The notes: generated from the letters alone by a model not told the origin. DNA of 64,000 bases from Natronorubrum halalkaliphilum (GCF_009834785.1 NZ_WUYX01000069.1:62001-126000); one strand, 5' to 3'. Positions 3,064 to 56,245 are shown, numbered from the stretch's first letter. Made by a program: numbers and translations.

Positions 3064-3197
3064 TCAGTAGTACACCAACCGCTGATAGAAATACAACTAC
3101 CATAAATGCTGTCTCTCGATTATCACTCATGATAAATGTCGAATACGGGTCGGAGAACCGTCTGAGAGCGCAACATCGCTCCCTCGGTTGGCAAGCG

Positions 3198-4022
3198 TTA
3201 TTCCCGCTGTCCGGACGCCAACAGGAACCTTTCCACGTCGATCAGCGGCGTCGCCTCGATAACGACCTCTCGAGTCGACGCCGTCTCCTCCGATTCCGCC
3301 GCTGTCGACTCCCCGTCATCGGCGGCCTCCGCGTCATCTGCACCCAGTTCGAACGTCTCTCCGTCGGCGCTGCCGGAGTCGGCCTGTGACGGTCCCCGCG
3401 GTGACGACAGTGTCATGCCCCCGCCGCTACTGGCGTCTCCACCGGAGGCAGTCTCGATCCGTGCCTCGTTCGTGGCTCCGACGTCACCGAACTCGGACTC
3501 GAGTTCTGGTTCGGGGTCCCGCTCCTGCTTGATGATCCCGGCCACGAGCGGGTGCTCGAGCGGTTCGGCGCTGAGCGGCTGCTCGTCGAGCGCCGCTTCA
3601 TCCAGAATATCGCTTTCGGGGACCGACTCGACGCCGATCACGTCGTCGACGCGGAGCGCCGCCGACTGGCGGTCCGCAGGTCGGTCGAGGACGAGCAACT
3701 GCTCTCGTCCGTCTCGTCGCCCGGGTTCGGTCACCGGAAAGTGGACGGACGGCTCGATCACGGCGGTGACCTCGCCGCGCAGGTCGACCATCCCCTCGAT
3801 AGCCGCCGGCGCTCGCGGAACTCGCGTCAACTCGTCGGGACGTTCCGCGAGCGTCCGGACCGCGTCGACCGGCACTGCCAGCCTGTGCTCGCCGACCCCG
3901 AAGTAGACGAATCGCTCGAGTTCTTCGTGCTCTTCATCCGCGTCGTCGGCGTCCCGACGCGTTCGGTCGTCGGCTTCGCCGATGTCGATTCCGAGAAGTT
4001 TTTCGGAAAGGTCCGGGGCCAT
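3198..4022 (-). CDS. cheW: Chemotaxis coupling protein CheW with a long acidic insert
   Basis: Scaffold linking chemoreceptors to CheA. After a charged N-terminus the CheW fold begins at about residue 36 (ERFVYFGVGEHRLAVPV), continues through MVDLRGEVTAVIEPS, and its predicted last strand and helix (ATPLIDVERFLLA) are at the very C-terminus. Between residue about 175 and 250 lies a Ser/Gly/Asp/Glu-rich stretch with no counterpart in ordinary CheW, so the 274-aa protein is nearly twice normal length. It precedes cheY by 134 bp on the same strand and is divergent from the small cheW downstream. Family assignment is firm; the insert is unusual. Confidence 0.88.
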   Translation of the reverse strand: MAPDLSEKLLGIDIGEADDRTRRDADDADEEHEELERFVYFGVGEHRLAVPVDAVRTLAERPDELTRVPRAPAAIEGMVDLRGEVTAVIEPSVHFPVTEPGRRDGREQLLVLDRPADRQSAALRVDDVIGVESVPESDILDEAALDEQPLSAEPLEHPLVAGIIKQERDPEPELESEFGDVGATNEARIETASGGDASSGGGMTLSSPRGPSQADSGSADGETFELGADDAEAADDGESTAAESEETASTREVVIEATPLIDVERFLLASGQRE

Positions 4023-4150
4023 GTTCCTGTTCGGGTATCACATTCCAACACTAAAACGTTGACTCCCCGTGTCTGCTCGCCGAAGGCGCTCGGATCGATC
4101 CGTTCGCCAACGCCGCTTGTCGGATCGTTGCAACGTCACGTCACGAAACG

Positions 4151-4158
4151 TTTATGAG
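4151..4158 (+). promoter_or_regulatory. TATA-like box of the small cheW
   Basis: The sequence TTTATGAG, preceded by a purine-rich BRE-like GAAACG, lies about 28 nt before the ATG at 4183. This is the spacing of haloarchaeal leaderless promoters and supports the ATG at 4183 over the in-frame upstream codon at 4069. Confidence 0.5.
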
Positions 4159-4182
4159 ATTACTGTGAAAGTATTGCACAGC

Positions 4183-4647
4183 ATGGCATCGGCTGGAAAC
4201 GACGACGGCTCCACAACTGACGACCGCGTTACCGTTCTGACGTTCGATCTCGACGGCGATCGCTACTGCGTCAGGACGGAATCCGTCGCGTCCGTTCTCG
4301 GCGTCACGGACGAGGACGCGATCGCGACTGCGGACGACCCCTGGAACGCAGGGGTCGTTTCGGTGTCCGGGAACCGTATTCGGGTCGTCGACCTTCCGCG
4401 GGCGTTCAACTCGACGGCTCGGACGGCCTCCCGAATCGACGCGCCGAAACTACTCGTGTTCTCCCTTACCGACGGCGACGGGGACTACTACGGCTGGCTC
4501 GTCGACGACGTCGACGTGACGCGAACGGTCCGTACGAGCAGCGTCGAGCCGACTCGAACGAGTACGCACACTCGACATGTCAAGGGTCGGTTCGACCTCG
4601 ACGGGGAGACGGTCGTCTGGCTCGACGAGCGAGCGATTCACGGCTAG
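4183..4647 (+). CDS. cheW: Small CheW-like chemotaxis protein
   Basis: A 154-aa protein consisting of essentially one CheW domain: VTVLTFDLDGDRYCVRTESV opens it, the middle contains AGVVSVSGNRIRVVDLPRAF, and GETVVWLDERAIHG closes it. A second coupling protein probably lets different receptor arrays be wired to CheA. Divergent from the long cheW, with a 160-bp shared upstream region. The start at 4183 was chosen because the longer form begins upstream of the promoter box and has an Arg-rich, non-haloarchaeal N-terminus. Confidence 0.85.
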   Translation: MASAGNDDGSTTDDRVTVLTFDLDGDRYCVRTESVASVLGVTDEDAIATADDPWNAGVVSVSGNRIRVVDLPRAFNSTARTASRIDAPKLLVFSLTDGDGDYYGWLVDDVDVTRTVRTSSVEPTRTSTHTRHVKGRFDLDGETVVWLDERAIHG

Positions 4648-4664
4648 CGGAGGGGTCTGCGGGG

Positions 4665-5438
4665 CTACCGCATTCCCGGCGGCGGGCCGTCGTCCGAGTC
4701 GTCGTCGAGTTCGACGTCTAACCCCATCTCTTCGCGCTGTTCCTGCAATCGCTTGACCTTTCGGTAGTAGTAGGCGATGCCGGTGCCGCCGACCAGGGCG
4801 ACGATTCCGACCAGGCCCACGAACAGCGTGATGTCGCGGTTGAGGTAGTACCGCAGCGAGATGGTGCTATCTACCTGGTCCCAGGTCAGCCGCTCCTGAT
4901 TGTCGACGATTTCCCGGTCGTAGCCGCTCGGATTGACGTCGCCGAACAGGAAGTTCGACGTCCGGTGGCCGTCGGGTGTCATCACCTCGTAGGAGCCCTC
5001 GACGTAGGCGGGCAGGCGGAACGTCTTGCTGCCGGCTTCACCCGAGAACGCGAGCGTTCCGTTGCCGTCCGGCACGCGGATCTCGGTACTCGAGCGGCCC
5101 TGATCGACGTACAGTTCGGAACCGGTCAGTTCGGTCCCGTTGGGGTACCAGTACCGAACGCTGTGGATATCGAGGGCCTCGTCGCGAAAGAGGTTCGACC
5201 GGTACAGCGACAGTTCCTCTCGGTCCTCGAGATCGTAGACCGCGCGGAACTCGCTGCCGCTGATCAGGCTACCACCTTCGATATCGATGGCGACGTCGGC
5301 GTCACTGTCCCGAAGGTCGTCGTACTCTTCGTCGCGGTCGAGTTCCTCGTCGGAGATGCCGCCGAAGATCATCGAGCAACCGGCTAAACCGACGAGCAAT
5401 CCGACCGCGAGCACCGCGAGAACGAGCCGTCGATTCAT
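4665..5438 (-). CDS. Membrane-anchored lipoprotein of haloarchaeal type (resembles DUF5803)
   Basis: A 257-aa protein with an N-terminal lipoprotein signal (hydrophobic VLAVLAVGLLVGLAGC, lipobox Cys) and a second membrane helix near residue 205-230 (LFVGLVGIVALVGGTGIAYY) followed by a charged cytoplasmic tail rich in Asp. The middle about 170 residues would sit outside the cell. No catalytic motif is visible. The start was placed at the ATG one base after the TAA of the upstream gene, giving tight coupling; an alternative start lies five codons upstream, inside that gene. Third gene of the tfe transcription unit. Function unknown. Confidence 0.8.
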   Translation of the reverse strand: MNRRLVLAVLAVGLLVGLAGCSMIFGGISDEELDRDEEYDDLRDSDADVAIDIEGGSLISGSEFRAVYDLEDREELSLYRSNLFRDEALDIHSVRYWYPNGTELTGSELYVDQGRSSTEIRVPDGNGTLAFSGEAGSKTFRLPAYVEGSYEVMTPDGHRTSNFLFGDVNPSGYDREIVDNQERLTWDQVDSTISLRYYLNRDITLFVGLVGIVALVGGTGIAYYYRKVKRLQEQREEMGLDVELDDDSDDGPPPGMR

Positions 5439-5439
5439 G

Positions 5440-6120
5440 TTACGGAACGACACAACGGAGTTCCGCCGGGAGATACTCGCCGACGCTTGCGAGCAGCCCC
5501 GGTGGATCGGTGTTCTCGGTGCAGATCACGCTCTGCTCGAGCAGGCCGAGTCGCTCGACGGTGACGTAGTCTTGGGCGTGGCCCGCGCGGTTGAGCGTCG
5601 CCCGGACCTCCGCACGCGTCGCGCTGTTGACGTTGAGCCGACCGTTGCCGCGGCTCCACTCGTAGAGGCGGTCCTGTTCTTCCTCGGCGAGTCGCGACGG
5701 GTCGTCGTCGCCGCCGTAGACGAACTGTAGCGGGGTGTGCTGGACCAACCCGTACCGTTCGCGGATCTGGGTCGCCGACCCCGGCCCGAGTCCGAGTTCG
5801 TCGGTCGGGATTCGGACGCCCTCGCCCTGTCCGGCGTCGAGGATGAACCCGTCGTCGTCCCAGGTTTCGAACGTGCCGGTGTAGGTGGATCCCGCCTCGA
5901 GGTCGGGGACGATTTCGCCGAACTCCTCCCGGAGAACGTTTCGCGCGACGGTGGCGTCCTCGCCCTCGATGGTCACGGAGGGGAAATCGTCGTGGCGTAT
6001 GCCGATGTCGAATTCGACGTCGAGTTCGCCGATTTCGTTGGTGACAAGCGAGCGCAGCGAGTCCAGCGAGCGTTCGCGGGCGTCTCCTTCGACGTAGAGT
6101 TTCGTTGCGAGTACGACCAT
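5440..6120 (-). CDS. Archaeal conserved protein, DUF2110 family
   Basis: A 226-aa soluble protein that I assign to the archaeal DUF2110 family from its overall pattern: an N-terminal alpha/beta part starting VVLATKLYVEGDARERSLDS, a central segment with TYTGTFETWDDDGFILDAG that looks like an S1/OB-type beta barrel, and a helical C-terminus with RLNVNSATRAEVRATLNRAG, which resembles a helix-hairpin-helix. The ATG shares one base with the tfe stop (TAATG), so it is translated with tfe. A nucleic-acid-linked role is plausible from the possible OB/HhH elements and the tfe context, but that is inference. Confidence 0.75.
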   Translation of the reverse strand: MVVLATKLYVEGDARERSLDSLRSLVTNEIGELDVEFDIGIRHDDFPSVTIEGEDATVARNVLREEFGEIVPDLEAGSTYTGTFETWDDDGFILDAGQGEGVRIPTDELGLGPGSATQIRERYGLVQHTPLQFVYGGDDDPSRLAEEEQDRLYEWSRGNGRLNVNSATRAEVRATLNRAGHAQDYVTVERLGLLEQSVICTENTDPPGLLASVGEYLPAELRCVVP

Positions 6121-13121: not shown

Positions 13122-14957
13122 ATGAATTGTGATACGAACGGCCCCGTTGACGGCGTCGATCGACGCTCGGTCTTGGCTGCTGGCGCAGCCGGACTATCGC
13201 TCTCCCTGAGCGGCTGTATCGACACCGTTCGAAGCGTCGTCAACGACGACGGGGACGATCAACTGTCACTCTCCATCGTCACGGTTCCCGCGGACGGCGA
13301 CAGGGAAAACGTCCGAATCGCCCGTCACCTCGAGTCGAATCTCGAGGCGGTCGGCGTGGACGTAACCCTCACCATGCGTTCGCGCTCCGAGTTTTTGGAG
13401 AAAGTGCTGATCGATCACGACTTCGATCTCTACGTTGGTCGCCACCCCGCCGATTACGACCCCGACTTCCTCTACGAAGCCCTCCACTCCACGTACGCCG
13501 ACGAAGCCGGATGGCAGAACCCGTTCCGGTACTCCAATCCGACCTTCTTCGACCCCCTGCTCGAGGAGCAACGACGGGCTGAAGGAGAGGAACGACGCGC
13601 ACGTATCGACTCGGTCCTGGACGGACTCGCAGAAGAGAAACCGTTCGAACCGATCTGTCGGCCCGGCGAGTACCGCGTCGCCAGAACCGATCGGTTCGAC
13701 GGCTGGGACGACGGCCACCTCGCGACGCGACGTGGCTATCTCGGCCTCGACCCGCTCGACGAGGAGATCGACCGCCTCGACGCGCTCGTGACCGACGCGC
13801 GCCCGTCACAGAACGTCAACCCGCTCTCGGCGACGGCCCGCGAACGCGGTCCGATCGTCGATCTGCTGTACGATTCGCTCGGCACGGTTCACAGCAGCGA
13901 CGACGGCGAACACGAGATCGCCGAGTGGCTCGCCGAATCCTGGGAGTGGGAGACGCCGTCGGACGACGAACCGGGCGAGAAGACGATCGCCACCGTCACG
14001 CTCCGAGAGGACTGTACGTTCCACGACGGTGAGCCGGTGACCGCCGCGGACGTCGCCTTCACCTATCGGTTCATCGCCGATACCGCACTCGGTCAGGCCG
14101 ACTCCCCGTCGCCTGCGCCGCGCTATCGCGGACTGACGAGTCTGATCGACGAACACGGGATCGAGATCGACGACGAGAGCGACTATCGGCTCCGGATCCC
14201 TGTCGAAGCGGACAGAGCGGTCGCCGAACGCGCGTTTACCGTTCCGATCCTCCCTCGACATATCTGGCGCGAGGAGCTCCGAGATCGGATCGACACCGCC
14301 GGCGACGTTACGGCTCCGCAGGGCCAGTGGGGACTCGTCACCACGAGCTCGGTGGACCCGATCGGCAGCGGGCCCTACCAGTTCGAGAGCCAGTCCGACC
14401 GCGATTACCTGGCCCTCGAGCGGTTCGACGATCACTTTACCCGCCGGGAAGACCTCGACGGCGACCACCTCCTTGCACCGATGGTCGAGGAGCTCCGATT
14501 CAACGTCGATCCCGGCAGTTCGTCCTCTATCGCACGGGTCGAAAGCGGTGCCGCCGACGTCACGTCGTCGATGCTCGAGACGCACGCGATCAACGAAATC
14601 TCCGACGAGCCGGAGATTCAACGGCTCGAGGATCCGTCGTGGACGTTCTATCACCTCGGATTTAACACGCGCGTCCCGCCGTGTAGCAACCCCCACTTCC
14701 GGCGAGCGGTATCCCAGCTGATCGATAAAAAATGGGTGGTCGAAGAAATCTTCTACGACCACGCCGAGCCGATTGCGACGCCGGTAGCCGACGAGTGGGT
14801 CCCCGACGAGTTGGCGTGGGACGACGACACGTCCGAAGACCCGGTGACCCCGTTCGTCGGTACCGACGGCTCTCTCAACGTCGAAGCGGCACGCGCTGCG
14901 TTCGACGCAGCCGGGTATGCCTCCGACAGCGACGGTCGGTTATTGGGGCGGTACTGA
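13122..14957 (+). CDS. Family-5 (peptide/nickel-type) solute-binding lipoprotein, circularly permuted
   Basis: Exported lipoprotein of 611 aa with a Tat-like n-region (DRRSVLAAGAAG) and lipobox LSLSGC. All family-5 segments are present but in rotated order. Residues about 48-208 match what is normally the C-terminal part (LSIVTVPADGDRE, DPDFLYEALHS, PFEPICRPGEYRV). Residues about 225-611 match the normal N-terminal and middle parts (DARPSQNVNPLSATARERG, LREDCTFHDGEPVTAADVAF, WTFYHLGFNTR, HFRRAVSQLIDKKWVVEEIF) and then the protein ends. The ordinary order is seen in the protein at 49628-51241. No permease or ATPase is adjacent; the stop overlaps the start of a PAP2 gene (TGATG). Ligand unknown. 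Confidence 0.85.
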   Translation: MNCDTNGPVDGVDRRSVLAAGAAGLSLSLSGCIDTVRSVVNDDGDDQLSLSIVTVPADGDRENVRIARHLESNLEAVGVDVTLTMRSRSEFLEKVLIDHDFDLYVGRHPADYDPDFLYEALHSTYADEAGWQNPFRYSNPTFFDPLLEEQRRAEGEERRARIDSVLDGLAEEKPFEPICRPGEYRVARTDRFDGWDDGHLATRRGYLGLDPLDEEIDRLDALVTDARPSQNVNPLSATARERGPIVDLLYDSLGTVHSSDDGEHEIAEWLAESWEWETPSDDEPGEKTIATVTLREDCTFHDGEPVTAADVAFTYRFIADTALGQADSPSPAPRYRGLTSLIDEHGIEIDDESDYRLRIPVEADRAVAERAFTVPILPRHIWREELRDRIDTAGDVTAPQGQWGLVTTSSVDPIGSGPYQFESQSDRDYLALERFDDHFTRREDLDGDHLLAPMVEELRFNVDPGSSSSIARVESGAADVTSSMLETHAINEISDEPEIQRLEDPSWTFYHLGFNTRVPPCSNPHFRRAVSQLIDKKWVVEEIFYDHAEPIATPVADEWVPDELAWDDDTSEDPVTPFVGTDGSLNVEAARAAFDAAGYASDSDGRLLGRY

Positions 14958-15811
14958 TGCTGACGGAGGTACTGACGCAGGTCGCACTCGTCGTCGCGAT
15001 CATGCTGCTCGTCTCGATCCCGCTGTTTATCGGCCGGGAGCGACTCACGCGGCTCCGAACGGACTGGCAGTCCCGACTCCGGACATCTGCGCCAGCGATG
15101 CTTATTTTGTCGGTCGTCTTGCTGTTCAACCGGGTCATGCGACAGGACGATCCGGATATCGGTGTTCACATGACCGAGACGATCCGCGGACTCGAGGGCG
15201 AGTTCATCCTCATCTTCCAGCAGATCGGGAGCACGGAGCTGACGATGTACTTCTCGTTCATCTACGTCTACGGCTACACGTTCCTGTTGATCTTCCCGGC
15301 GGTCGCGTACTTCGCGCTGTCGGACACCAGGATGTTCCGACGCCTGTTGACGTCCTACACGCTCAACTACGCGATCGGGCTCACGCTGTACGCGCTCGTG
15401 ATCGCCTACGGACCGCGGAACTTCATGCCTGAAGTAGAGACGGTCCTGTACAACGCGAGTCCGGAGTACCAGCATCTCACTCGCGAGGTCAATCGGAACA
15501 CCAACGTCTTCCCGTCGCTACACACCTCGCTTGCGGCGACGGTCGGCCTGTTCGCCTACCACACCCGGTCGAGCTACCCGAAATGGTATCTTGTCGCCAC
15601 CGTCCTCGCTGTCAGTGTCATTATTTCGACGATGTACCTCGGGCTCCACTGGGCAACCGACGTCGTCGCAGGGCTCGCCCTCGCGGCCTTCTGCGTCGCC
15701 GCGTCCGACCGCATCGTCGGCCGGTGGTCGCTCTCGGCGATCTACACGGATCTCCGCAGTCTTCGCGAGCGACGTGCCGATCGGTCCGACGGAGCCGACG
15801 GTGATCCGTGA
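14957..15811 (+). CDS. PAP2-superfamily (AUR1-like) integral membrane phosphatase/phosphotransferase
   Basis: A 284-aa protein with about six membrane helices. Acid-phosphatase motifs are near the C-terminus: FPSLHTSLAAT (equivalent of PSGH, catalytic His) and STMYLGLHWATDVVAG (SRxxxxxHxxxD type, second His and Asp). YGPRN upstream replaces the usual KxxxxxxRP motif, as in the AUR1/inositol-phosphotransferase-like branch. Expected chemistry is hydrolysis or transfer of a lipid phosphate at the membrane. The start is the ATG sharing one base with the stop of the permuted binding protein, so the two are co-translated. A paralogue lies at 17740. Confidence 0.85.
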   Translation: MLTEVLTQVALVVAIMLLVSIPLFIGRERLTRLRTDWQSRLRTSAPAMLILSVVLLFNRVMRQDDPDIGVHMTETIRGLEGEFILIFQQIGSTELTMYFSFIYVYGYTFLLIFPAVAYFALSDTRMFRRLLTSYTLNYAIGLTLYALVIAYGPRNFMPEVETVLYNASPEYQHLTREVNRNTNVFPSLHTSLAATVGLFAYHTRSSYPKWYLVATVLAVSVIISTMYLGLHWATDVVAGLALAAFCVAASDRIVGRWSLSAIYTDLRSLRERRADRSDGADGDP

Positions 15812-15889
15812 CCGACCCGTGCGCAGCGCCTCGAGCGGCCAGCGCAATACTGTTATACCGCCGGCTGCCAAGTCCCACAAACGATCGGA

Positions 15890-17740
15890 ATGAGTGACAG
15901 CGTGGCCGGACGGACGACCACCGAAGCCGCCGAGCGCGAAGCCTCCGGCGACGACGGCGGCGGCGGCAACGGCATCAGCCGCCGAGCGGCGCTAGCGTCG
16001 ACCGTCGGGCTAACGACGGCCACGAGCGGCTGCGTCCGTCAACTTCGCAGTATCGTCAACCGAGACGATATCGATCCGCTCTCACTGACGATCACGACCC
16101 TTCCTGCGGACGGCGACCGAGAAAGCATCCGGCTCGCCAGGGAGATCGCCGCGGCGCTCGAGGCCGCCGGGATCGACACGAGTATCGAGATGCGATCAAA
16201 CGAGGAGTTCCTGCGCTCGGTACTGATCAATCACGACTACGACGTGTACGTGGGTCAACACCCCGGGGGAACCGACCCGGACTTTCTCTACGAGGCGCTC
16301 CACTCGCTGTACGCCGACGAGCGCGGCTGGCAGAACCCGTTCGGGTTTACGAACCTGCTGGTCGACGACTTACTCGAGTCCCAGCGGGATGTCGACGGCG
16401 AGCAGCGCCGCGAGGCGGTCACATCACTACTCGAAGCGCTGACGGTCGAACAGCCGTTCGTCCCGATCTGTACGCCGATCGAACACCGACTCGTCAGGGA
16501 CGATCGGTTCGACGGCTGGGACGACGGCCACCTCGCGACCCGAACGGGCTATCTCGGGCTCGAGCCCCAAACCGACGGCAGCGGCGAGCAGCTGCGAGCC
16601 GTCCACATGGACGCACGCCCGTCGCAAAATCTCAACCCGATCAACGCCGAGTATCGCGATCGAGGGACGATCGCCGACCTGCTGTACGACTCGCTCGCCA
16701 CCGACGTCGTCGATATCGACGGCGCCCACGAACTCGAGCCGTGGCTCGCCGAGGACTGGGTGTGGGACGAGGGCGACGATGAAGCTGAAACCGAAGACCA
16801 ATCGAGCCTAACCGTCGAACTTCGGCCAGATTGTCGGTTTCACGATGGCGAGCCACTCACCGCCGACGACGTCGCCTTCACCTATCGGTTCCTCGCGGAC
16901 ACCGCACTCGGCGGCAGCGCCACACCTGCGCCGGCACCGCGCTATCGCGGACAGGTCGCCGCGATCGACGACGTCGAGGCCACCGACGACCGTACCCTCG
17001 AGTTCACAGTCGCCACAGGCGAAGAAGTCGCTGCTCGTGCACTGACGGTGCCGATCCTCCCCGAACACGTCTGGACCGAGCGCGCCGCAGCCGCCAGCGT
17101 TCCCGGCTATCGCGTCGCCCAGGGAACCACCGATGCGGTGGTGACGGACAACGTCCCGCCGATCGGGAGCGGCCCGTTCCAGTTCGGCGATCGAACCGAA
17201 CGCGAACACGTTACGCTCGAGCGCTTCGAGGATCACTTCACGAGCCGCGACGACGTCGATCTCCCCGAGGCGACGGTCGAGGAACTGCGCGTCCAGATCG
17301 ATCCGCGGAGCACGTCGGCGATCCAGTTGATCGAAGACGACAGCGCCGATCTCACGAGTTCGACCCTCGAGAACTACGTCATCGCCGATATCGAGGAGAC
17401 CGAGGACGTTCGGTTGCTCGAGTCGCCGTCGTGGACGTTCTACCACCTCGGATTTAACGCGCGCAAAGCGCCGTTTGGGAACCCCCGGTTCCGACAGTGC
17501 GTCGCGCAGCTGATCGACAAGTCGTGGGTGGTCGACGAGGTGTTTCACGGCCACGCCGATCCGATCGCGACGCCGGTAGCCGGCGAGTGGGTCCCCGAGG
17601 AGTTGGCGTGGGACGGGGCGGATCCGGAGCTGCCGTTCCTCGGCTCCGACGGCGACGTCGACGTCGACGCGGCACGAACCGCGTTCGAAGCGGCCGGCTT
17701 TCGGTACGACGGCGACGGGAACCTCCGGGTGAGACACTGA
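15890..17740 (+). CDS. Second circularly permuted family-5 solute-binding lipoprotein
   Basis: A 616-aa paralogue of the 13122 gene with the same rotated segment order. A Tat-type signal (SRRAALASTVGLTTATSGC) is followed by the normally C-terminal part (LTITTLPADGDRE, DPDFLYEALHSLYADERGW, PFVPICTPIEHRL), then DARPSQNLNPINAEYRDRG, LRPDCRFHDGEPLTADDVAF and RFRQCVAQLIDKSWVVDEVF, ending soon after. Blocks such as RFDGWDDGHLATR and PSWTFYHLGFN are shared with the first copy, so the pair arose by duplication. It starts 78 bp after the first PAP2 gene and ends in a TGATG overlap with the second. Ligand unknown; no transporter subunits nearby. Confidence 0.85.
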   Translation: MSDSVAGRTTTEAAEREASGDDGGGGNGISRRAALASTVGLTTATSGCVRQLRSIVNRDDIDPLSLTITTLPADGDRESIRLAREIAAALEAAGIDTSIEMRSNEEFLRSVLINHDYDVYVGQHPGGTDPDFLYEALHSLYADERGWQNPFGFTNLLVDDLLESQRDVDGEQRREAVTSLLEALTVEQPFVPICTPIEHRLVRDDRFDGWDDGHLATRTGYLGLEPQTDGSGEQLRAVHMDARPSQNLNPINAEYRDRGTIADLLYDSLATDVVDIDGAHELEPWLAEDWVWDEGDDEAETEDQSSLTVELRPDCRFHDGEPLTADDVAFTYRFLADTALGGSATPAPAPRYRGQVAAIDDVEATDDRTLEFTVATGEEVAARALTVPILPEHVWTERAAAASVPGYRVAQGTTDAVVTDNVPPIGSGPFQFGDRTEREHVTLERFEDHFTSRDDVDLPEATVEELRVQIDPRSTSAIQLIEDDSADLTSSTLENYVIADIEETEDVRLLESPSWTFYHLGFNARKAPFGNPRFRQCVAQLIDKSWVVDEVFHGHADPIATPVAGEWVPEELAWDGADPELPFLGSDGDVDVDAARTAFEAAGFRYDGDGNLRVRH

Positions 17741-18591
17741 TGCTGGTCAGAGTGTTGTTGCAGTTGACGGTGGTCGTGACGCTCATGATACTCATCTCGA
17801 CGGCCCTGTTCGTCGGCCGATATCGGCTTCGAGACACGCGAGTGGAGTGGCGAAGTCGGATCCGAGCGGCAGCTCCAATCACGATCGCCCTCGCCGTCGT
17901 CTTGCTGTTCAATAGCGTCGCCAGACAGATCGTCCCCGATCTCTCGTGGATGATCGACTGGAACTTCACGGAGCCCATTTACGATATCGAGGGCGAGTTC
18001 ATCCTCTGGCTGCAGTCGCAGGCGACGCCGGCGGTGACGGCGTACTTCTCGTTTATCTATATCTACGGCTACGTCTTCCTGCTGATCTTCCCCGTCGTCG
18101 CCTACTTTGCGCTCTCGAATACGCGCCCCCTTCGGGAACTCTTGACGGCCTACACCCTGAACTACGCACTCGGCCTCCTCCTCTACACGTTCGTCATCGC
18201 CTACGGCCCGCGGAACATGATGCCGGACCTCGTGGAAGCGCTACTGTACGATACGTACCCCCAGTACCAGCATCTCACGCGACAGGTCAACCGCAACACC
18301 AACGTTTTCCCGTCGCTTCACACTTCCCTCGCCGCGACCGTGTCCTTTCTCGCCTATCGAACCCGCGAGATCTATCCGACGTGGAACCTCCTTGCGGCCG
18401 GCCTCGGCGTCTCCGTCGCGATTTCGACGATGTATCTGGGCATTCACTGGGTGATCGACGTCCTTGCCGGGATCGTCCTCGCGTACATCAGCGTCGAACT
18501 TGCGGGCGTCCTCGTCGGTCGCTGGTCGCTCTCGGAGTGGCTGGACGGCCACGTGCCGTCGTTGGGAGCGTTTCGGGATAGTAACGAGTAA
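17740..18591 (+). CDS. Second PAP2-superfamily (AUR1-like) membrane protein
   Basis: A 283-aa paralogue of the 14957 product. Conserved blocks include EGEFILWLQS, FSFIYIYGYVFLLIFP, AYGPRNMMPD, NRNTNVFPSLHTSLAATVSF (catalytic His) and AISTMYLGIHWVIDVLAG. Multiple membrane helices, with catalytic residues predicted at the outer face. The ATG overlaps the upstream binding-protein stop by one base; an in-frame extension upstream would be Arg-rich out-of-frame translation of that gene and is rejected. Last gene of the duplicated SBP-PAP2 array. Confidence 0.85.
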   Translation: MLVRVLLQLTVVVTLMILISTALFVGRYRLRDTRVEWRSRIRAAAPITIALAVVLLFNSVARQIVPDLSWMIDWNFTEPIYDIEGEFILWLQSQATPAVTAYFSFIYIYGYVFLLIFPVVAYFALSNTRPLRELLTAYTLNYALGLLLYTFVIAYGPRNMMPDLVEALLYDTYPQYQHLTRQVNRNTNVFPSLHTSLAATVSFLAYRTREIYPTWNLLAAGLGVSVAISTMYLGIHWVIDVLAGIVLAYISVELAGVLVGRWSLSEWLDGHVPSLGAFRDSNE

Positions 18592-45418: not shown

Positions 45419-46462
45419 CTACATTTCCGACTCGTCTTCGTCGTGGAGGAGACAGCGACTGACGTGATCGGTGCCGACGTCGACGAGTTCGGGTTCGACT
45501 CGAGAACAGTCGTCGACGGCTCGGTGACACCGGGGGTGGAACGGACAGCCCGAGGGCGGATCGGACGGATCAGGCGTCTCGCCGCGGATCGAGATTCGCT
45601 CCGGCTTGAACGCCGCTTCCGACTCCTCGACGATCGGAATCGCCGACAGTAACTGTTCGGTGTATGGGTTCTGCGGGGCGTCGAACAGCGTCTCCGCGGG
45701 CGCTTTCTCCATGAGTTTGCCCAGGTACATTACGCCGATGCGGTCGGCGATGTTTTTCGTGAGGCTCAGATCGTGCGTGATCATGAGATACGAGAGGTCG
45801 AGTTCCGCCTGTAACTCCTCGAGGAGCGCGATCACCTTGGCCTGGACGCTCACGTCCAGCGCGCTCGTCGGTTCGTCGAGAACGAGCAACGATGGATTCA
45901 GCGTCAACGCGCGAGCGATCGCGACCCGCTGTTTCTGGCCGCCGGAAAGCTCGTTCGGGTACCGGTACAGGAAGTCCTCCGGCAGATCGACGCGCTCGAG
46001 CAGTTCCGCGACGCGTTCTCGCCGCTCGGCTTTCGTGCCGATATCGTGGACGACCAGCGGTTCGGCGACGATGTCTTTGATCCGCTTTCGCGGATTCAAC
46101 GACGAGGTCGGATCCTGATAGACGACCTGAATCTCGCGTCGGACCGGCTTGAGGTCCCGCTCGGACAGCGCCGAAATATCCCGTCCGTCGAACCTGATCG
46201 ATCCGCCGGTCGGCGCGTGAAGCCGAGCGATCGTCTTCCCGAGTGTCGTTTTACCACAGCCGGACTCGCCGACGATGGCGAACGTTTCCCCGCGTCTGAC
46301 GTCGAAGGAGACGCCGTCTACGGCCTTCACTTCGCCGATCTGTTTCTTGAGCAGTCCGCCCGTGATCGGGTAGTACTTCTCGAGATCCCGAACTTGAAGA
46401 AGCGGTTCGTCGGTGTCGTCGATGCTATCGGTTTCATCGGCTCTGGTGTGGTCGCTACTCAT
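45419..46462 (-). CDS. dppF: Peptide/nickel-type ABC transporter ATP-binding protein DppF/OppF
   Basis: A 347-aa ATPase: Walker [18 protein letters not shown]-loop [16 protein letters not shown], signature [17 protein letters not shown], Walker [16 protein letters not shown]-loop MITHDLS. The C-terminal family-specific segment [15 protein letters not shown] is present. Last gene of the SBP-dppBCDF operon; its ATG overlaps the dppD stop by 8 bp. The ATG at 46462 was chosen over one 21 codons upstream lying inside dppD. Confidence 0.94.
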
Positions 46463-47663
46463 CGGTATCCTCCGCGCTTCGAGGCGTCTGTGCGTCGATC
46501 GAAGCCGTTGTTCCGGCACTCTCACCCTTCACGCTCGACCGGTCCTGGGCCGGTTCCGAGGTCGGTCGATCCTCGAACGCGGCCCCGCTGTCGAACTCGA
46601 TCTCCTCGGCCGCGATTTCCGCCGCTTCCGCTCGGGACAGACCGTCCTCGTAGAGGTGGCAGGCGACTTCCTGGCCCGACGACAGTTCGTACCGCGGCGG
46701 TCGTTCGACGTCGCACGTGCCGGACATAGCGGCCGGACAGCGCGGGTGGAATCGACAGCCCGACGGCGGATCGGTGTAGTCCGGGAGGAGCCCCTCGATG
46801 CCGTCGCGATCGAACTCGGTGAGCTTCGGCACGCTGTCGACCAGCCCCCGGCTGTAAGGGTGTAAGGGTTCGTCGAGGATCTCGTCTCGAGTGCCGACCT
46901 CGGCGATCTCACCGGCGTACATGACGTAGATCCGGTCGGCGATCCGACGGGCGACGCCGAGGTTGTGCGTGATGTACAGCATCGAGAGGTTCTCGCGTTC
47001 GATCTGTTCGGTCAGCAGGTCGAGGATCTGATCCTGGACGGTGACGTCGAGCGCCGTCGTCGGCTCGTCCGCGATGAGGAATTCGGGTTCGCCGAGCATC
47101 GCCATCGCGATCAGGACCCGCTGGCGCATCCCGCCGGAGAGCTCGATCGGATACCGATCGAGAACGCCTTCCGGATCCGGAATCTGGAGCTGATCGAGCA
47201 GTTCGACGCTTCGATCGCGCATCTCCGCCTCGTCTGCGTCGCGTCGGCCGAGCACGTTGCGAACGATCTCGAGCCAGCCGACGTTCGTTTTGCCCTGGTA
47301 GGTCAGGACGTCGCGCATCATCTCGCCGACGGTAAACACCGGCGAGAGACTCGTCATCGGATCCTGGAAGATCATCCCCATCGACTCGCTTTTGACCCGT
47401 TCGTGGGCTGTCTGATCGCCGAGGAGTTCCTCACCCTTGTAGTAGAGTTCGCCGTCGACGATCTCACCGGGTGGCTGGGGGAGCATCCCCATGATCGTTT
47501 CCGCCGTGACGCTCTTGCCGCAGCCGGATTCGCCGACGATGGCGACGGTTTCGCCCTCGTCGACGGTGATATCGACGTCGTTGATGACGCGAGCGCGGCC
47601 GTCGAACGTGTCGAAGTGAACTTCGAGGTCACGAAGTTCGAGGATCGGATCGGTCCTACTCAT
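46455..47663 (-). CDS. dppD: Peptide/nickel-type ABC transporter ATP-binding protein DppD/OppD
   Basis: A 402-aa ATPase: Walker [18 protein letters not shown]-loop MIFQDPMTSLSPVFTV, signature IELSGGMRQRVLIAMAM, Walker B FLIADEPTTALDVT, then the oligopeptide-family motif GCRFHPRCPAAMSGTC. A 60-residue Ser/Thr/Glu C-terminal extension is present. Between dppC and dppF on the minus strand. Confidence 0.94.
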   Translation of the reverse strand: MSRTDPILELRDLEVHFDTFDGRARVINDVDITVDEGETVAIVGESGCGKSVTAETIMGMLPQPPGEIVDGELYYKGEELLGDQTAHERVKSESMGMIFQDPMTSLSPVFTVGEMMRDVLTYQGKTNVGWLEIVRNVLGRRDADEAEMRDRSVELLDQLQIPDPEGVLDRYPIELSGGMRQRVLIAMAMLGEPEFLIADEPTTALDVTVQDQILDLLTEQIERENLSMLYITHNLGVARRIADRIYVMYAGEIAEVGTRDEILDEPLHPYSRGLVDSVPKLTEFDRDGIEGLLPDYTDPPSGCRFHPRCPAAMSGTCDVERPPRYELSSGQEVACHLYEDGLSRAEAAEIAAEEIEFDSGAAFEDRPTSEPAQDRSSVKGESAGTTASIDAQTPRSAEDTDE

Positions 47664-47664
47664 C

Positions 47665-48570
47665 TTAGTCTACCTCCACGTCGAGGACGTCGCGGAGCCC
47701 GTCGCCGAGCAGGTTGAACCCGAGAACGGCGATGAAGATCGCCACGCCGGGGAACGTCGAGTACCACCACTGTGCGGGGAGGTATGCGCGTCCCTCGGCG
47801 ATCATCGTCCCCCACTCGGGCGTGGGCGGTTGGGCGCCGAGTCCGAGGAAGCCGAGGCTGGCTCCGATCAGGATGGCGTAGCCCATGTCGAGGCTGAACT
47901 TGACCGTGATCGGTGCCAACACGTTGGGGAGAATCTCTCGGAACATGATTCGAATTCGACTCGCGCCGATGCCGCGGCTGGCTTCGACGAACTGCTCTTC
48001 GCGGACCGAGATCACTTCGCCGTAGACCAGCCTGGCGTACCACGGCCACCAGACGACGGCGATGGCGATCATCGCGTTTCGCAGGCTCGGCTGGAGCGGT
48101 ACCGCCACCGCGAGCGCGAGCACGAGCGGCGGGACCGACAGGAAGATATCGGTGATTCGCATGAGCACCTGTCCGGTGAATCCGCCGACGTACCCGGCGA
48201 CGAGGCCGACCGGAACGCCGATCCCGATCGCGAAGGTGAGGACGAACAATCCGAGCGCGAGCGAGTACCGCGTGCCGAATATCACCCGCGAGAGGATGTC
48301 CCGCCCGGCCTGGTCCGTCCCGAACGGATGCGCGAGGCTCGGTTCGGCGAACCGGTTCGCGAAATCGACCGCGGGTTCGCCCATGTAGCCGGCGTCTTGG
48401 GGATGGCGAGCGATGTACGGAGCGAAGATAGCGATGAAGACGAGTCCGACGATGATTCCGAGTCCCACCAGCGACAGCGGGTTCTGCCGGAACCGGTAGG
48501 CGATCCGTCGGGCGCTTTCTTTGCGGTTCTCCATCGACTCCGAGTGGTACCAGTTTTCGATCGCGCTCAT
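47665..48570 (-). CDS. dppC: Peptide/nickel-type ABC transporter permease DppC
   Basis: A 301-aa permease with an N-terminal cytoplasmic segment, a first helix (LVGLGIIVGLVFIAIFAPYI) and five further helices. The EAA-type coupling motif is EASRGIGASRIRIMFREILP, and GTDQAGRDILSRVIFGTRYS is a DppC hallmark. Overlaps the end of dppB by 4 bp and precedes dppD by one base. Confidence 0.94.
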   Translation of the reverse strand: MSAIENWYHSESMENRKESARRIAYRFRQNPLSLVGLGIIVGLVFIAIFAPYIARHPQDAGYMGEPAVDFANRFAEPSLAHPFGTDQAGRDILSRVIFGTRYSLALGLFVLTFAIGIGVPVGLVAGYVGGFTGQVLMRITDIFLSVPPLVLALAVAVPLQPSLRNAMIAIAVVWWPWYARLVYGEVISVREEQFVEASRGIGASRIRIMFREILPNVLAPITVKFSLDMGYAILIGASLGFLGLGAQPPTPEWGTMIAEGRAYLPAQWWYSTFPGVAIFIAVLGFNLLGDGLRDVLDVEVD

Positions 48571-49586
48571 TCGCCGTCACCTCCGTATCTGACTCGCGGA
48601 TCGAAGTAGCCGTAGAGAATGTCGACCACCAGATTCGCGACGATGAACACGATGCCGACGACCAGCGTCACGCCGACGATCGCGTTGATGTCGTTGGCCA
48701 GAATCGCGTCGACGCCGTAGCGGGCCATCCCTGGCCAGGCGAAGACGATCTCGATGAGAAACGCCGACCCGATGAGAAAGCCGTAGTCGAGCGCGATGAT
48801 CGTCAACGTCGCCGCGAACGACGACTTCAGCACGTACTTGTACGCGATGAGCTTTCCGGGAATGCCCGAGGAGTGCAACGCGTGGACGTAGTCCTTGTTC
48901 AACTCCTCGATGAAACTCGAGCGGGTCATTCTGGCGATATCGGCCATCGGCGCGAGCGCGAGCGTAAACGCTGGCAGTGCGATGTGGGCGACCGCGCTCC
49001 GGAACGCGCGGAAGTCCATCGCGATCAGGCTATCGACGAGCATCATTCCGGTCAACCGGGGCGGCGCTTCTACGCCGATTCGGCCGGTCGCCGGGAGCAG
49101 CCCCAGGTGGAACGCGAAGACCAGTTGGAGCAGGATCGCGGCCCAGAAGGCGGGCATCGACACGCCGAAGAACGCAAACAGTCGGCTGGCGTTGTCCTCG
49201 GCCTCGTCCTTGTTTCGGCCGGCGATAATGCCGAGCGGAACACCGATCGCGATGGCGATCAGCATCCCGACCGTGATCAGCTCGAACGTCGCCGGGAAGA
49301 AGTAAACGAGATCCGCCGCGACGTTCCGGTTCGTAATGAGCGAGATCCCCATATCGCCTTGCAACAACCCGGCCATGTAATCGAAATACTGAACGACGAC
49401 TGGATCGTCGAGTCCCATCTCGTCTCGGAGCGATTGAACGGCTTCGTCCGTCGCCCGCGGGCCGAGCGCGAGCCGTGCCGGATCACCGGGAAGCACACGG
49501 GCGAGCGTGAAGATGAGAATCGAGAGCCCGATGAAAACGGGAATGCCGGCTAGCGTCCGTCGTATCACGTAGCTTTTGAAGCCCAT
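48567..49586 (-). CDS. dppB: Peptide/nickel-type ABC transporter permease DppB
   Basis: A 339-aa permease starting with the typical IRRTLAGIPVFIGLSILIFT and VLPGDPARLALGP; the periplasmic segment DPVVVQYFDYMAGLLQGDMG and EAA motif VHALHSSGIPGKLIAYKYVL follow. Six predicted helices. Starts 42 bp after the binding-protein gene on the minus strand. Confidence 0.94.
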   Translation of the reverse strand: MGFKSYVIRRTLAGIPVFIGLSILIFTLARVLPGDPARLALGPRATDEAVQSLRDEMGLDDPVVVQYFDYMAGLLQGDMGISLITNRNVAADLVYFFPATFELITVGMLIAIAIGVPLGIIAGRNKDEAEDNASRLFAFFGVSMPAFWAAILLQLVFAFHLGLLPATGRIGVEAPPRLTGMMLVDSLIAMDFRAFRSAVAHIALPAFTLALAPMADIARMTRSSFIEELNKDYVHALHSSGIPGKLIAYKYVLKSSFAATLTIIALDYGFLIGSAFLIEIVFAWPGMARYGVDAILANDINAIVGVTLVVGIVFIVANLVVDILYGYFDPRVRYGGDGE

Positions 49587-49627
49587 ATAGTGTTAATCGT
49601 AATCGTAATATCGCGCGAGACGTGCGA

Positions 49628-51241
49628 TCAGCGATCTTCGTAGAGGCGCCAGAACGCCTTCGAGTACCCGACGAGACCGTTATCGACGTAGCCGCCGACG
49701 CGTTCGTTGACCCCGTACAGCTCCGCCTCGTTGACGACGAACAGCGCCGGTGCGTCGTCGGCGATGATCTCCTGTACCTCCTCGTAGTACTCGGTTCGCT
49801 GGTCAACGTCGATCTCGGTTCGGGCGTCGTCCAGTAACTGATCGACCTCCTCGTTCTCGTACCAGGCCGGACTCTCCCAACTGCCGTGGGAATCCGAGTG
49901 CCACGCGGGGTAGAGGAACGTGTCCGGGTCAACGTAGGAAAACGAGAGGTAGATGGCGTGCATGTCCGAGGTCGTGTCCTGGCTCGTTACCATATCCGTG
50001 ATGCGAGTCCACGGCGCCCCCTCGAGTTCGAGATCGATGCCCAGTTCGTTGAGGTTCGTCTGCAGCAACAGCCCGATATTCTCGGTGACCGTCAGGCCGG
50101 TCACGTAGGTGTAGGTGAGTTCGATGTCTTCGGCGTCGTAATCGGACTCGTCGAGGTACTCCTGAGCGCGCTCGAGGTCCTGTTCGTACTGGATCACGTC
50201 GTCGTTGTGCCCCCACATCTCCGAGGGGAGCGGCCCCTGCATCTGGTCGGCGTTCCCGAGCAGGATGTCGTCGACGATCTGCTGGTAGTCGACGGCGTAG
50301 GAGATGGCCCTGCGGACGTTGACGTCGTCCAGCGGCTCGCGCTGGGTGTGCATGAAGACGTACAGCGGCGAGAACGTGACCTCGTCGCTGACGAACACGT
50401 GATCGAGGTCGGCCAGTTCCTGGTAGGATTCAACGGACAGCCACTCGTCGGTGATGTCCGCGGACTCGTCACCCATCATCCCCGTGACCGTCCCTTCTTC
50501 GGGAACGATCTCGAGGACGACTTCGTCGAAGAGGTCGTCGCTGGGCCAGTCGCCCCACCAGTCCTCGGAACGCTGCAGGACGAGTCGTTCTTCGCGCTCG
50601 TGTTCGACGAGTTCGTAGGGGCCGCTGCCGGCGTCGTTCTGTTCGAGCCAGTCCTCGTCGTTGGCGTCGATCTCCGATTCGTTGACGATCGGCATGTAGG
50701 GCAGCGTAAAGAGGAACGGTGCGAACGTCCGTTCGGTTTCGATTTCGACGGTGGTTTCGTCCGCGGCGGTGACGCTGTCGGGTCCGATCGTATCCGCCCA
50801 CATCCAGGAGAGTCCGTCCTGTAGCTCGAGCATCCGTTCGAACGAGTAAACGACGTCGTCGGCGGTCACGGGATCGCCGTTGTGGAACGTCGCGTCGTCG
50901 CGCAGGAAGAACTCGTAGGTCTGGTCGTCGTCGCCCACCTCCCAGTCTTCCGCAAGCCCCGGTGCAAGTTCCGGCGGCGATTCGTCGGTGTAGTTGAGCA
51001 ACGAATCGTAGACGTTGACGGTGTAAATGTTCTCGAAGTTATCCGACGCTCGCATCGGATCGATCGTCGACGGGGAAATCGTCGTTGCGTACACGAGCGA
51101 CTCGTCTTCGTCGGTCTCTTCGGGCTCCTCGCCCGCACAGCCTGCGAGTACGGTGGTCAGTCCGCCGGCGCCGACACACTGCAGCAGCCGTCGCCGTCCG
51201 ATCTGGTGTGGAGTTACGTGGTCTTTGCCATCGAGACTCAT
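49628..51241 (-). CDS. dppA: Family-5 peptide-type solute-binding lipoprotein (ordinary domain order)
   Basis: A 537-aa Tat-exported lipoprotein (signal GRRRLLQCVGAGGLTTVLAG, then Cys). Ordinary family-5 order: ISPSTIDPMRASDNFENIYT, LRDDATFHNGDPVTADDVVY, VRRAISYAVDYQQIVDDILL, then DIELTYTYVTGLTVTEN, DPDTFLYPAWHS, VDQLLDDART and EEVQEIIADDAPALFVVNEA at the C-terminus. First gene of the transporter operon. The start at 51241 fits a TATA-like GGTATATTAC about 28 nt upstream. Ligand probably a peptide or ring amide relevant to the adjoining hydantoinase genes (inference). Confidence 0.92.
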   Translation of the reverse strand: MSLDGKDHVTPHQIGRRRLLQCVGAGGLTTVLAGCAGEEPEETDEDESLVYATTISPSTIDPMRASDNFENIYTVNVYDSLLNYTDESPPELAPGLAEDWEVGDDDQTYEFFLRDDATFHNGDPVTADDVVYSFERMLELQDGLSWMWADTIGPDSVTAADETTVEIETERTFAPFLFTLPYMPIVNESEIDANDEDWLEQNDAGSGPYELVEHEREERLVLQRSEDWWGDWPSDDLFDEVVLEIVPEEGTVTGMMGDESADITDEWLSVESYQELADLDHVFVSDEVTFSPLYVFMHTQREPLDDVNVRRAISYAVDYQQIVDDILLGNADQMQGPLPSEMWGHNDDVIQYEQDLERAQEYLDESDYDAEDIELTYTYVTGLTVTENIGLLLQTNLNELGIDLELEGAPWTRITDMVTSQDTTSDMHAIYLSFSYVDPDTFLYPAWHSDSHGSWESPAWYENEEVDQLLDDARTEIDVDQRTEYYEEVQEIIADDAPALFVVNEAELYGVNERVGGYVDNGLVGYSKAFWRLYEDR

Positions 51242-51263
51242 GGTATGGGTACCCGAGGCAAGA

Positions 51264-51273
51264 GTAATATACC
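51264..51273 (-). promoter_or_regulatory. TATA box of the binding-protein/dpp operon
   Basis: On the minus strand GGTATATTAC ends about 22 nt before the ATG at 51241, giving the dppABCDF genes their own promoter downstream of the hyuAB-racemase genes. A second AT-rich GTATATATTC at 51317-51326 could be an alternative. Confidence 0.5.
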
Positions 51274-51364
51274 TTTCGCATGATGTCATCTTCTGTGCCC
51301 GAATTGGCTCCTTATAGAATATATACTCCACAAAACGTGAACAAATTAGTTCGAAACGTGATTA

Positions 51365-52162
51365 CTAGTTCTCGGACGACGAGTGGTCCCAGACGCCTCG
51401 CGTCGAGAAGTCCTCGGGGACGTCCCAGTCGTGAATCTCTGCGGGGCGGGGCGATTCGTACCCGCCGATGTTGCTGTGTGACCAGCCGAGCGAGGCCAGT
51501 TCCGCCTGGAGTTCGGCGAACTTGAACGGGGCGACGACGGCGTCGAGGACGGGGCCCCCGAGTTCGTCCTGCAGCGTTTCGTGGAAGCCGTATTCTGCGG
51601 TACAGCCGAGAATGATCACCTCGGCGTGATCCTCCTCGATCGCGCTCTGTGCGGCCGTCGTGAGCCGTTCTCGCGTTCGCTCGGGATCGGCCTGAAAGTC
51701 GAGTACGCCCAGATCGACGGGACGGAACGACGCCAGGCGGTCGTCGAACCCGTATCGTGCGATCGTCGAGCGCATCTGGGGGACCCACTTCCGACGGCCA
51801 ACGATCACCGAGAACGTATCCCCCATCGTCGACGCGAGATGTGTCGTCGCCTGTGCCGGCCCCATCACCGGCATCGAGTCGGAGACCTCGCGAGCCTCCT
51901 CGAGTCCGAGATCGTAGAAGCAGCCGATGACGGTGGCGTCGACACCGTCGTTTTCGGCTTCCTTGACGCGGTGAAGAACGTCCGGTAACACCAGCGATTC
52001 GTAGTAGTGAAACTCGACGTGGTGTGGGCCGCGGTCGAGGCTTACGACCTCGACCTCCGTCGTTTCACGTTTCGTTTCGTTCAACAGCGCTTCGATGTCG
52101 TCGCTGAAATCGTCGTGGCCGACCGGATCGATCCACCTGATTCGGGTTGCATTCGTGCTCAT
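51365..52162 (-). CDS. Aspartate/glutamate/hydantoin racemase family protein
   Basis: A 265-aa enzyme of the Asp/Glu/hydantoin racemase superfamily. Two cysteines in equivalent positions of the two lobes form the acid/base pair: DATVIGCFYDLGLEEAREV and VIILGCTAEYGFHETLQDEL. PVMGPAQATTHLASTMGDTF also matches hydantoin/allantoin racemases. It likely interconverts enantiomers of a hydantoin or amino acid so that both can enter the HyuAB route. Follows hyuB with a 14-bp gap. Confidence 0.85.
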   Translation of the reverse strand: MSTNATRIRWIDPVGHDDFSDDIEALLNETKRETTEVEVVSLDRGPHHVEFHYYESLVLPDVLHRVKEAENDGVDATVIGCFYDLGLEEAREVSDSMPVMGPAQATTHLASTMGDTFSVIVGRRKWVPQMRSTIARYGFDDRLASFRPVDLGVLDFQADPERTRERLTTAAQSAIEEDHAEVIILGCTAEYGFHETLQDELGGPVLDAVVAPFKFAELQAELASLGWSHSNIGGYESPRPAEIHDWDVPEDFSTRGVWDHSSSEN

Positions 52163-52176
52163 GGGTTGATAGTGGG

Positions 52177-55982: not shown

Positions 55983-56005
55983 AATGAGCACACAATTCGG
56001 AGAGT

Positions 56006-56013
56006 GTATTAAA
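56006..56013 (-). promoter_or_regulatory. TATA box of the minus-strand hyuAB genes
   Basis: The minus-strand sequence GTTTAATA lies about 28 nt before the GTG at 55982, fixing that start as leaderless. It sits in an AT-rich divergent region. Confidence 0.55.
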
Positions 56014-56245
56014 CTTTCTGTCACCGAATTTTCCCAATTGTATTTATTTCGTCTATAACAGTCCAGTTTAGAACCGAATGGGGGGATGAAAGAGCACATC
56101 ACGAAACGACACATCGACGATTCGTCTACTAATATGATTACGACCCGGTCGCTTCTCTCGCTGGAATCGCTGGCGACGGCCCATTGGAACGAGAGCGCGA
56201 GACGTCCGCGGGTCGCTGTGACCGTGACTCGAGTGAGAATCTTGT

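Follow-up and report, generated by a model that had tools for sequence, protein, structure and literature searches.

Very probable circular permutation of two family-5 solute-binding proteins in Natronorubrum halalkaliphilum, and its recurrence

Two solute-binding proteins (SBPs) encoded in a 64,000-nucleotide stretch of Natronorubrum halalkaliphilum DNA (hereafter the window) are very probably circularly permuted members of family 5, a large binding-protein family that is detected with a single profile in a single order, and the permutation has with the same high probability arisen recurrently. The two open reading frames, P0001 and P0002, are present on the plus strand as a preliminary description of the window had claimed (Table 1). 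The PF00496 (SBP_bac_5) profile has 368 positions; in P0001 profile positions 282-359 are matched at window 13251-13481 and positions 2-284 only afterwards, at 13917-14936, while in P0002 positions 287-358 precede positions 1-286. The whole-protein scores of 174.8 and 179.7 bits exceed the Pfam gathering cut-off of 32.4, and SBP_bac_5 is the only confident Pfam family in either protein, each time as two stretches. Instead of a collinear match of the N part followed by the C part, the Pfam scan thus found two matches in swapped order for both proteins, as the preliminary description had anticipated, and for this reason the pair is classed as a permuted variant and not as an ordinary member. The protein proposed there for comparison does have the ordinary order, its real extent being 49628-51331 on the minus strand rather than 49628-51241.

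Table 1. Features of the window that bear on the rotated proteins (coordinates counted from the first letter of the window).
Feature	Position	Strand	Evidence
P0001, rotated family-5 solute-binding lipoprotein 1, 611 aa	13122..14957	+	PF00496 twice, swapped; split profiles; AlphaFold2 pLDDT 88.7
P0001 Tat-like signal and lipobox (..SLSGC), residues 1-32	13122..13217	+	translation; homologue alignment
P0001 ordinary C-terminal third, placed first, residues 44-197	13251..13712	+	split profile 1.9e-15; PF00496 282-359
P0001 ordinary N-terminal two thirds, placed last, residues 227-611	13800..14954	+	PF00496 2-284; aligns to ~1-357 of solved family-5 chains
PAP2 (PF14378) membrane phosphatase 1	14957..15811	+	start codon overlaps P0001 stop (TGATG); catalytic residues invariant in 67 relatives
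P0002, rotated family-5 solute-binding lipoprotein 2, 616 aa	15890..17740	+	PF00496 twice, swapped; split profiles
P0002 ordinary C-terminal third, placed first, residues 64-212	16079..16525	+	split profile 2.7e-12
P0002 ordinary N-terminal two thirds, placed last, residues 244-616	16619..17737	+	PF00496 1-286
PAP2 (PF14378) membrane phosphatase 2	17740..18591	+	start codon overlaps P0002 stop (TGATG)
Ordinary-order family-5 protein (comparator, outside the rotated set), 567 aa	49628..51331	-	PF00496 1-365 in order

Split profiles were made from ordinary proteins only (n=11, from archaea and Bacillaceae) and cut at the loop of the new termini, giving an N part of 321 and a C part of 166 positions. 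P0001 matches the C part at residues 44-197 (1.9e-15) and then the N part at 227-575; P0002 does so at 64-212 (2.7e-12) and 244-603. By Pfam and split profiles alike, the ordinary last third stands ahead of the other two thirds in both proteins, as the circular permutation reading holds. Among 238 family-5 open reading frames (all loci fetched to that point, some of which overlap), the split profiles gave the order C-then-N in 170, N-then-C in 57 and the N part only in 11, and found none that carried both orders or resembled a fused duplicate intermediate. The median coverage of the rotated proteins runs from 11 to 320 of the 321 N-part positions and from 6.5 to 150 of the 166 C-part positions, with a 20-residue gap (a linker of about 20 aa) between the parts and few residues past the N part. 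Judged by this coverage, no segment is lost in the rotated proteins; the chain is rotated and the old termini are joined. The swapped order of P0001 and P0002 is, on the same sequence comparisons, far beyond chance, and it is kept in more than 100 homologues.

The window pair falls in a haloarchaeal branch in which a PAP2 (PF14378) gene follows the SBP gene. Directly downstream of 88 rotated genes, PAP2 was found in 65, a permease in 12, both in none and neither in 11, which are for the most part second copies from Natrinema and include one opposite-strand operon. Two Natrinema second copies (L073 and L077) stand without the PAP2 gene that is found after their counterpart in the window genome. 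In the window, both SBP stop codons overlap the PAP2 starts as TGATG, the two PAP2 proteins score 69.5 and 68.0 bits against PF14378 (cut-off 27), and the motifs PSLH, HxxxD and GPRN do not vary among 67 sequences. Adjoining permease or ATPase genes were found neither for the window pair nor for the SBP-PAP2 branch. Gene order alone suggests a partnership with PAP2, and we tentatively propose that the window pair may represent a permease-less branch coupled to this lipid phosphatase, in which the SBP would act as a ligand-binding accessory of the membrane enzyme. It is also possible, if rather doubtful, that the PAP2-paired proteins are ordinary transport receptors using a distant permease and that the PAP2 gene next to them has a loose link to them or none: permeases can be shared by binding proteins, and the window genome holds further family-5 importers, but the SBP-PAP2 pair is kept across many haloarchaeal genera with its genes overlapping or nearly touching, and it never has a permease downstream. 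With regard to the proposed PAP2-coupled role, LpqW, a lipoprotein of the family-5 fold, demonstrates that this fold is able to work in a membrane lipid pathway, as it steers PIM/LM synthesis in mycobacteria (PMC3229680, PMC10928101).

The preliminary description named two rotated proteins, both of which are real, but the family-5 rotated total in the N. halalkaliphilum genome is five. The other three lie on contigs C39 (L017) and C13 (L018), both seen by a genome-wide PF00496 search, and on contig C44 (L019), seen by the split profile. Beyond this genome, homologue searches showed the rotated form to be conserved, with more than 100 homologues and with members in Halobacteria, bacteria and TACK archaea. 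Tallies were made at E <= 1e-28 with a junction profile (A2) that divides the two forms cleanly: rotated proteins match it over positions ~1-191 at more than about 100 bits, ordinary proteins over one half only and at less than 95 bits. The rotated form was found in 92 of 145 sampled genomes of Halobacteria (48 of 58 genera), in 7/142 genomes of the class of a Rhizobiaceae metagenome-assembled genome (MAG; Alphaproteobacteria), and, as upper estimates, in 15/149 of the phylum of Cytobacillus (Bacillota) and 5/121 of the phylum of a Nitrososphaeria MAG (Thermoproteota). The latter two are upper estimates because the weaker matches L199-L201, L209, L210 and L213 are unconfirmed by the split profile, which finds just the N part in these proteins although they match A2 end to end. 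Within the phylum of an Anaerolineales MAG and that of a Halomonas MAG, the form was seen in no genome but these two MAGs, and it also occurs in one Armatimonadetes, one Marsarchaeota and one Thermoprotei genome. Overall, the rotated groups comprise Halobacteria, some Alphaproteobacteria, Bacillota, Chloroflexota, Armatimonadota and TACK archaea; with bacteria and TACK archaea among them, the idea of an oddity confined to haloarchaea was rejected. Five relatives retrieved by the locus search, from Bacillaceae (L123, L128, L138) and Thermoprotei (L117, L141), turned out to have the ordinary order.

Permease and ATPase genes do lie alongside L017, L018 and the bacterial members. Rotated proteins often stand at the head of a complete ABC-importer operon, and in Nitratireductor, Maritalea, Ketogulonicigenium, Roseomonas and the haloarchaeon Natrononativus such an operon includes two permeases and two ATPases; the rotated proteins are annotated merely as ABC transporter substrate-binding protein. 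On the minus strand of the window, 45419-56114 holds an ordinary SBP gene with two permease genes, two ATPase genes, a racemase-like gene and putative hydantoinase/oxoprolinase genes, and three rotated alphaproteobacterial SBPs (L151, L153, L154) sit in closely resembling clusters. Ordinary and rotated receptors may serve a similar type of operon.

For the trees, sequences were un-rotated in silico, and the core rotated set was reduced to 30 representatives. A single clade of this core set was compatible with the data (p-AU 0.115), so that one origin of the core is compatible with, though not shown by, the sequences. A single clade of the core together with L018, L202 and L211 was rejected (p-AU 1.5e-4, in a reduced 33-row set), and with it, in these trees, a single origin for all rotated forms. 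L018 groups with ordinary haloarchaeal proteins; its family occurs in 27 of 97 Halobacteria genomes, of which 12 carry the rotated form and the others the ordinary one (12 and 8, respectively, verified by translation). In the tree of this family the rotated and ordinary forms interleave. L217 of genome G054, which is rotated, and L227 of genome G075, which is ordinary, are sisters (100/100), and a single rotated clade was rejected (p-AU 9e-6). The rejection was repeated with each module taken separately (N part 6e-6, C part 0.011), and since the L217/L227 sister pair recurs in each module tree, transfer of a single module fails to explain it. Two rotated proteins from the Bacillota sample (L211 and L212) end a few residues earlier, at '..LLREAGYRVD', and L211 falls among ordinary proteins in the trees; the two possibly represent another independent rotation.

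Comparison of the G054 and G075 loci places this change of order at one chromosomal site. Outside the SBP gene, and in its signal-peptide region, the DNA is collinear at 65-76% nucleotide identity; the matching stretches take in an hpt-like gene and antiporter region upstream and 4 kb of permease and ATPase genes downstream, with permease 2 being 90% identical in protein. Within the SBP gene, rotated nucleotides 3751-4161 correspond to ordinary 4361-4768, and rotated 4313-5523 to ordinary 3111-4321. In the protein, the signal end is shared (residues 1-33 in both, 82%), rotated 53-235 equals ordinary 481-662 (73%), and rotated 248-661 equals ordinary 72-485 (73%). Because orthologous importer loci carry either order, the order is, on these alignments, taken to have changed more than once at one chromosomal site. 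Five residues (ordinary 481-485) are contained in both matches, so that the rotated chain carries them at either end; duplication followed by trimming would leave such a trace, though the overlap is too short for proof. Circular permutation via duplication and subsequent trimming is a described model (PMC3320104), and the rotated chains could have originated in the same manner, by an in-frame tandem duplication from which the outer pieces were lost.

In two genomes, G057 and G087 (loci L241, L245), an ordinary operon of the L018 family converges on a rotated one that lies within about 10 kb, and such neighbours are possible recombination partners. An alternative that can be built on them assumes only a few ancient permutations and ascribes the interleaving in the L018 family to old paralogues, rotated and ordinary, that were gene-converted module by module and then differentially lost, or to module-wise recombination between species. 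Haloarchaea recombine freely, but the account is unlikely: L217 and L227 are sisters in both modules at loci that are collinear on both sides, so that both modules would have to be converted, and the G057 and G087 paralogues share only ~40% identity in their N parts. Repeated, perhaps reversible, switching of family-5 topology at one fixed loop in orthologous loci, which would make chain topology an evolutionarily labile trait, together with a permuted side branch that left transport and partners PAP2, is an overall picture that we consider nearly, if not quite, probable.

The new C-terminus in most rotated proteins reads '..A...L..AGY.WD.DGrL..', and the new N-terminus starts at the next strand. 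Sequence alignment places the cut of the mature chain in one loop, which connects the end of the '..A..LL..AGY..DGxL' helix to the following strand; this same loop is cut in nearly all rotated proteins, and the signal sequence stays in front of the rotated chain. It is scarcely conceivable that the order is an assembly or annotation artefact, as the draft state of the window genome (72 contigs) might suggest, given that independent genomes show it many times over, including assemblies of one to three contigs, and that signal sequence, linker and stop are all in frame there at the same loop.

AlphaFold2 models of P0001 (with 44 rotated sequences; pLDDT 88.7, pTM 0.87) and of one bacterial rotated member (pLDDT 84.5, pTM 0.81) predict the family-5 fold for the rearranged chain. 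With sequential aligners, residues ~212-611 of the P0001 model match ~1-357 of solved family-5 chains, among them AppA (1xoc; Z 21.7, 331 residues at 2.9 Å) and NikZ (4oet; Z 22.1), and the bacterial model matches 1xoc at Z 24.4. Sequential aligners cannot place out-of-order segments, so the match to 1xoc assigns the fold to residues 212-611, and the identity of the C-terminal third comes from the sequence match to the split profile. No rotated order was found in the 60 PDB matches listed for a profile of rotated proteins; in all 60, the early chain aligns to the late part of that profile.

The preliminary description had set two arrangements against rotation, an unrelated domain at the N-terminus and a complete ordinary domain after residue 222, and its reading survives both: the N-terminal third is the family's C-terminal third, and the rest lacks the C part. 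The corresponding rival, which makes the N-terminal ~210 residues an unrelated domain followed by a full ordinary protein, draws on the weak score of the first part of P0001 alone against Pfam (24 bits) and has a vanishingly small probability, as the split profile matches this part at 1.9e-15 (1e-23 or better in bacterial members), the chain past ~212 aligns only to ~1-357 of the ~500-residue chains, and the N part stops at the loop without a C-terminal third.

In the structural match of the P0001 model, the cut corresponds to OppA ~361. This lies inside domain III, which we take to span ~270-486, so the cut would fall in the second lobe and leave the number of hinge crossings unchanged. The ligand cleft and both permease-contacting faces would likewise remain intact, and because these features are kept, rotation probably affects ligand binding and transport very little. 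The suggestion that rotation moves the lipid anchor holds for haloarchaeal forms with an N-terminal lipid anchor, in which it would shift from lobe 1 to lobe 2. As a general reason for rotation, anchor placement was rejected, because a lipobox is missing from many of the rotated bacterial proteins. Four rotated proteins of Nitrososphaeria and Marsarchaeota (L112, L113, L202, L203) have a C-terminal transmembrane anchor after a linker, so that their anchor meets the second lobe from the opposite end.

In the open-access literature, no report was found of permuted family-5 proteins or of an order change between orthologues of one binding protein. A widespread permuted subfamily under a generic annotation bears on annotation, structure modelling and biosensor design. 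The both-order locus further provides naturally matched proteins, with about 73% identity in each module and closely similar permeases, on which the effects of topology on folding, export, lipid anchoring and permease docking can be studied. Such pairs are a natural experiment on re-cutting protein chains and on the way in which natural permutation arises, which has usually been studied only on distant relatives.

The closest relatives of the rotated proteins are the ordinary SBP_bac_5 or cluster C proteins (AppA 1xoc, NikZ 4oet, DppA 1dpp, OppA 1ola), with which they share the sequence family and the predicted fold; bacterial and some haloarchaeal rotated members also come first in operons of the same type as theirs, which contain two permeases and two ATPases. 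Unlike these, the rotated proteins have their chain parts exchanged and their termini in the second lobe, not the first. Permuted binding proteins are already known in other clusters. OpuAC-type glycine betaine binding domains and ProX are related by permutation, as in the family-5 case, but belong to cluster F and bind other substrates. TpMglB-2 (Tp0684) is a circularly permuted glucose-binding lipoprotein, designated 'type Ic / cluster Bc', that resembles the rotated family-5 proteins in being a naturally permuted, anchored binding protein with a clade of its own, but it belongs to cluster B, has another cut site, an added fourth hinge crossing and a divergent segment, and no both-order orthologues are reported there (PMC4990184). 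LpqW (PDB 2grv) is a family-5-fold lipoprotein tied to a membrane lipid pathway and not a transporter (PMC3229680, PMC10928101). It matches the P0001 model at Z 20.3 but, unlike the window pair, is actinobacterial and has the ordinary order in the matched range. To our knowledge, LpqW has no PAP2 partner. Permuted DNA methyltransferases and swaposins are further natural circular permutations, for which duplication is the classic model (PMC3320104); they are other families, whereas in family 5 either order is found in orthologues at one syntenic locus, and the family-5 case is unusual in its breadth and recurrence.
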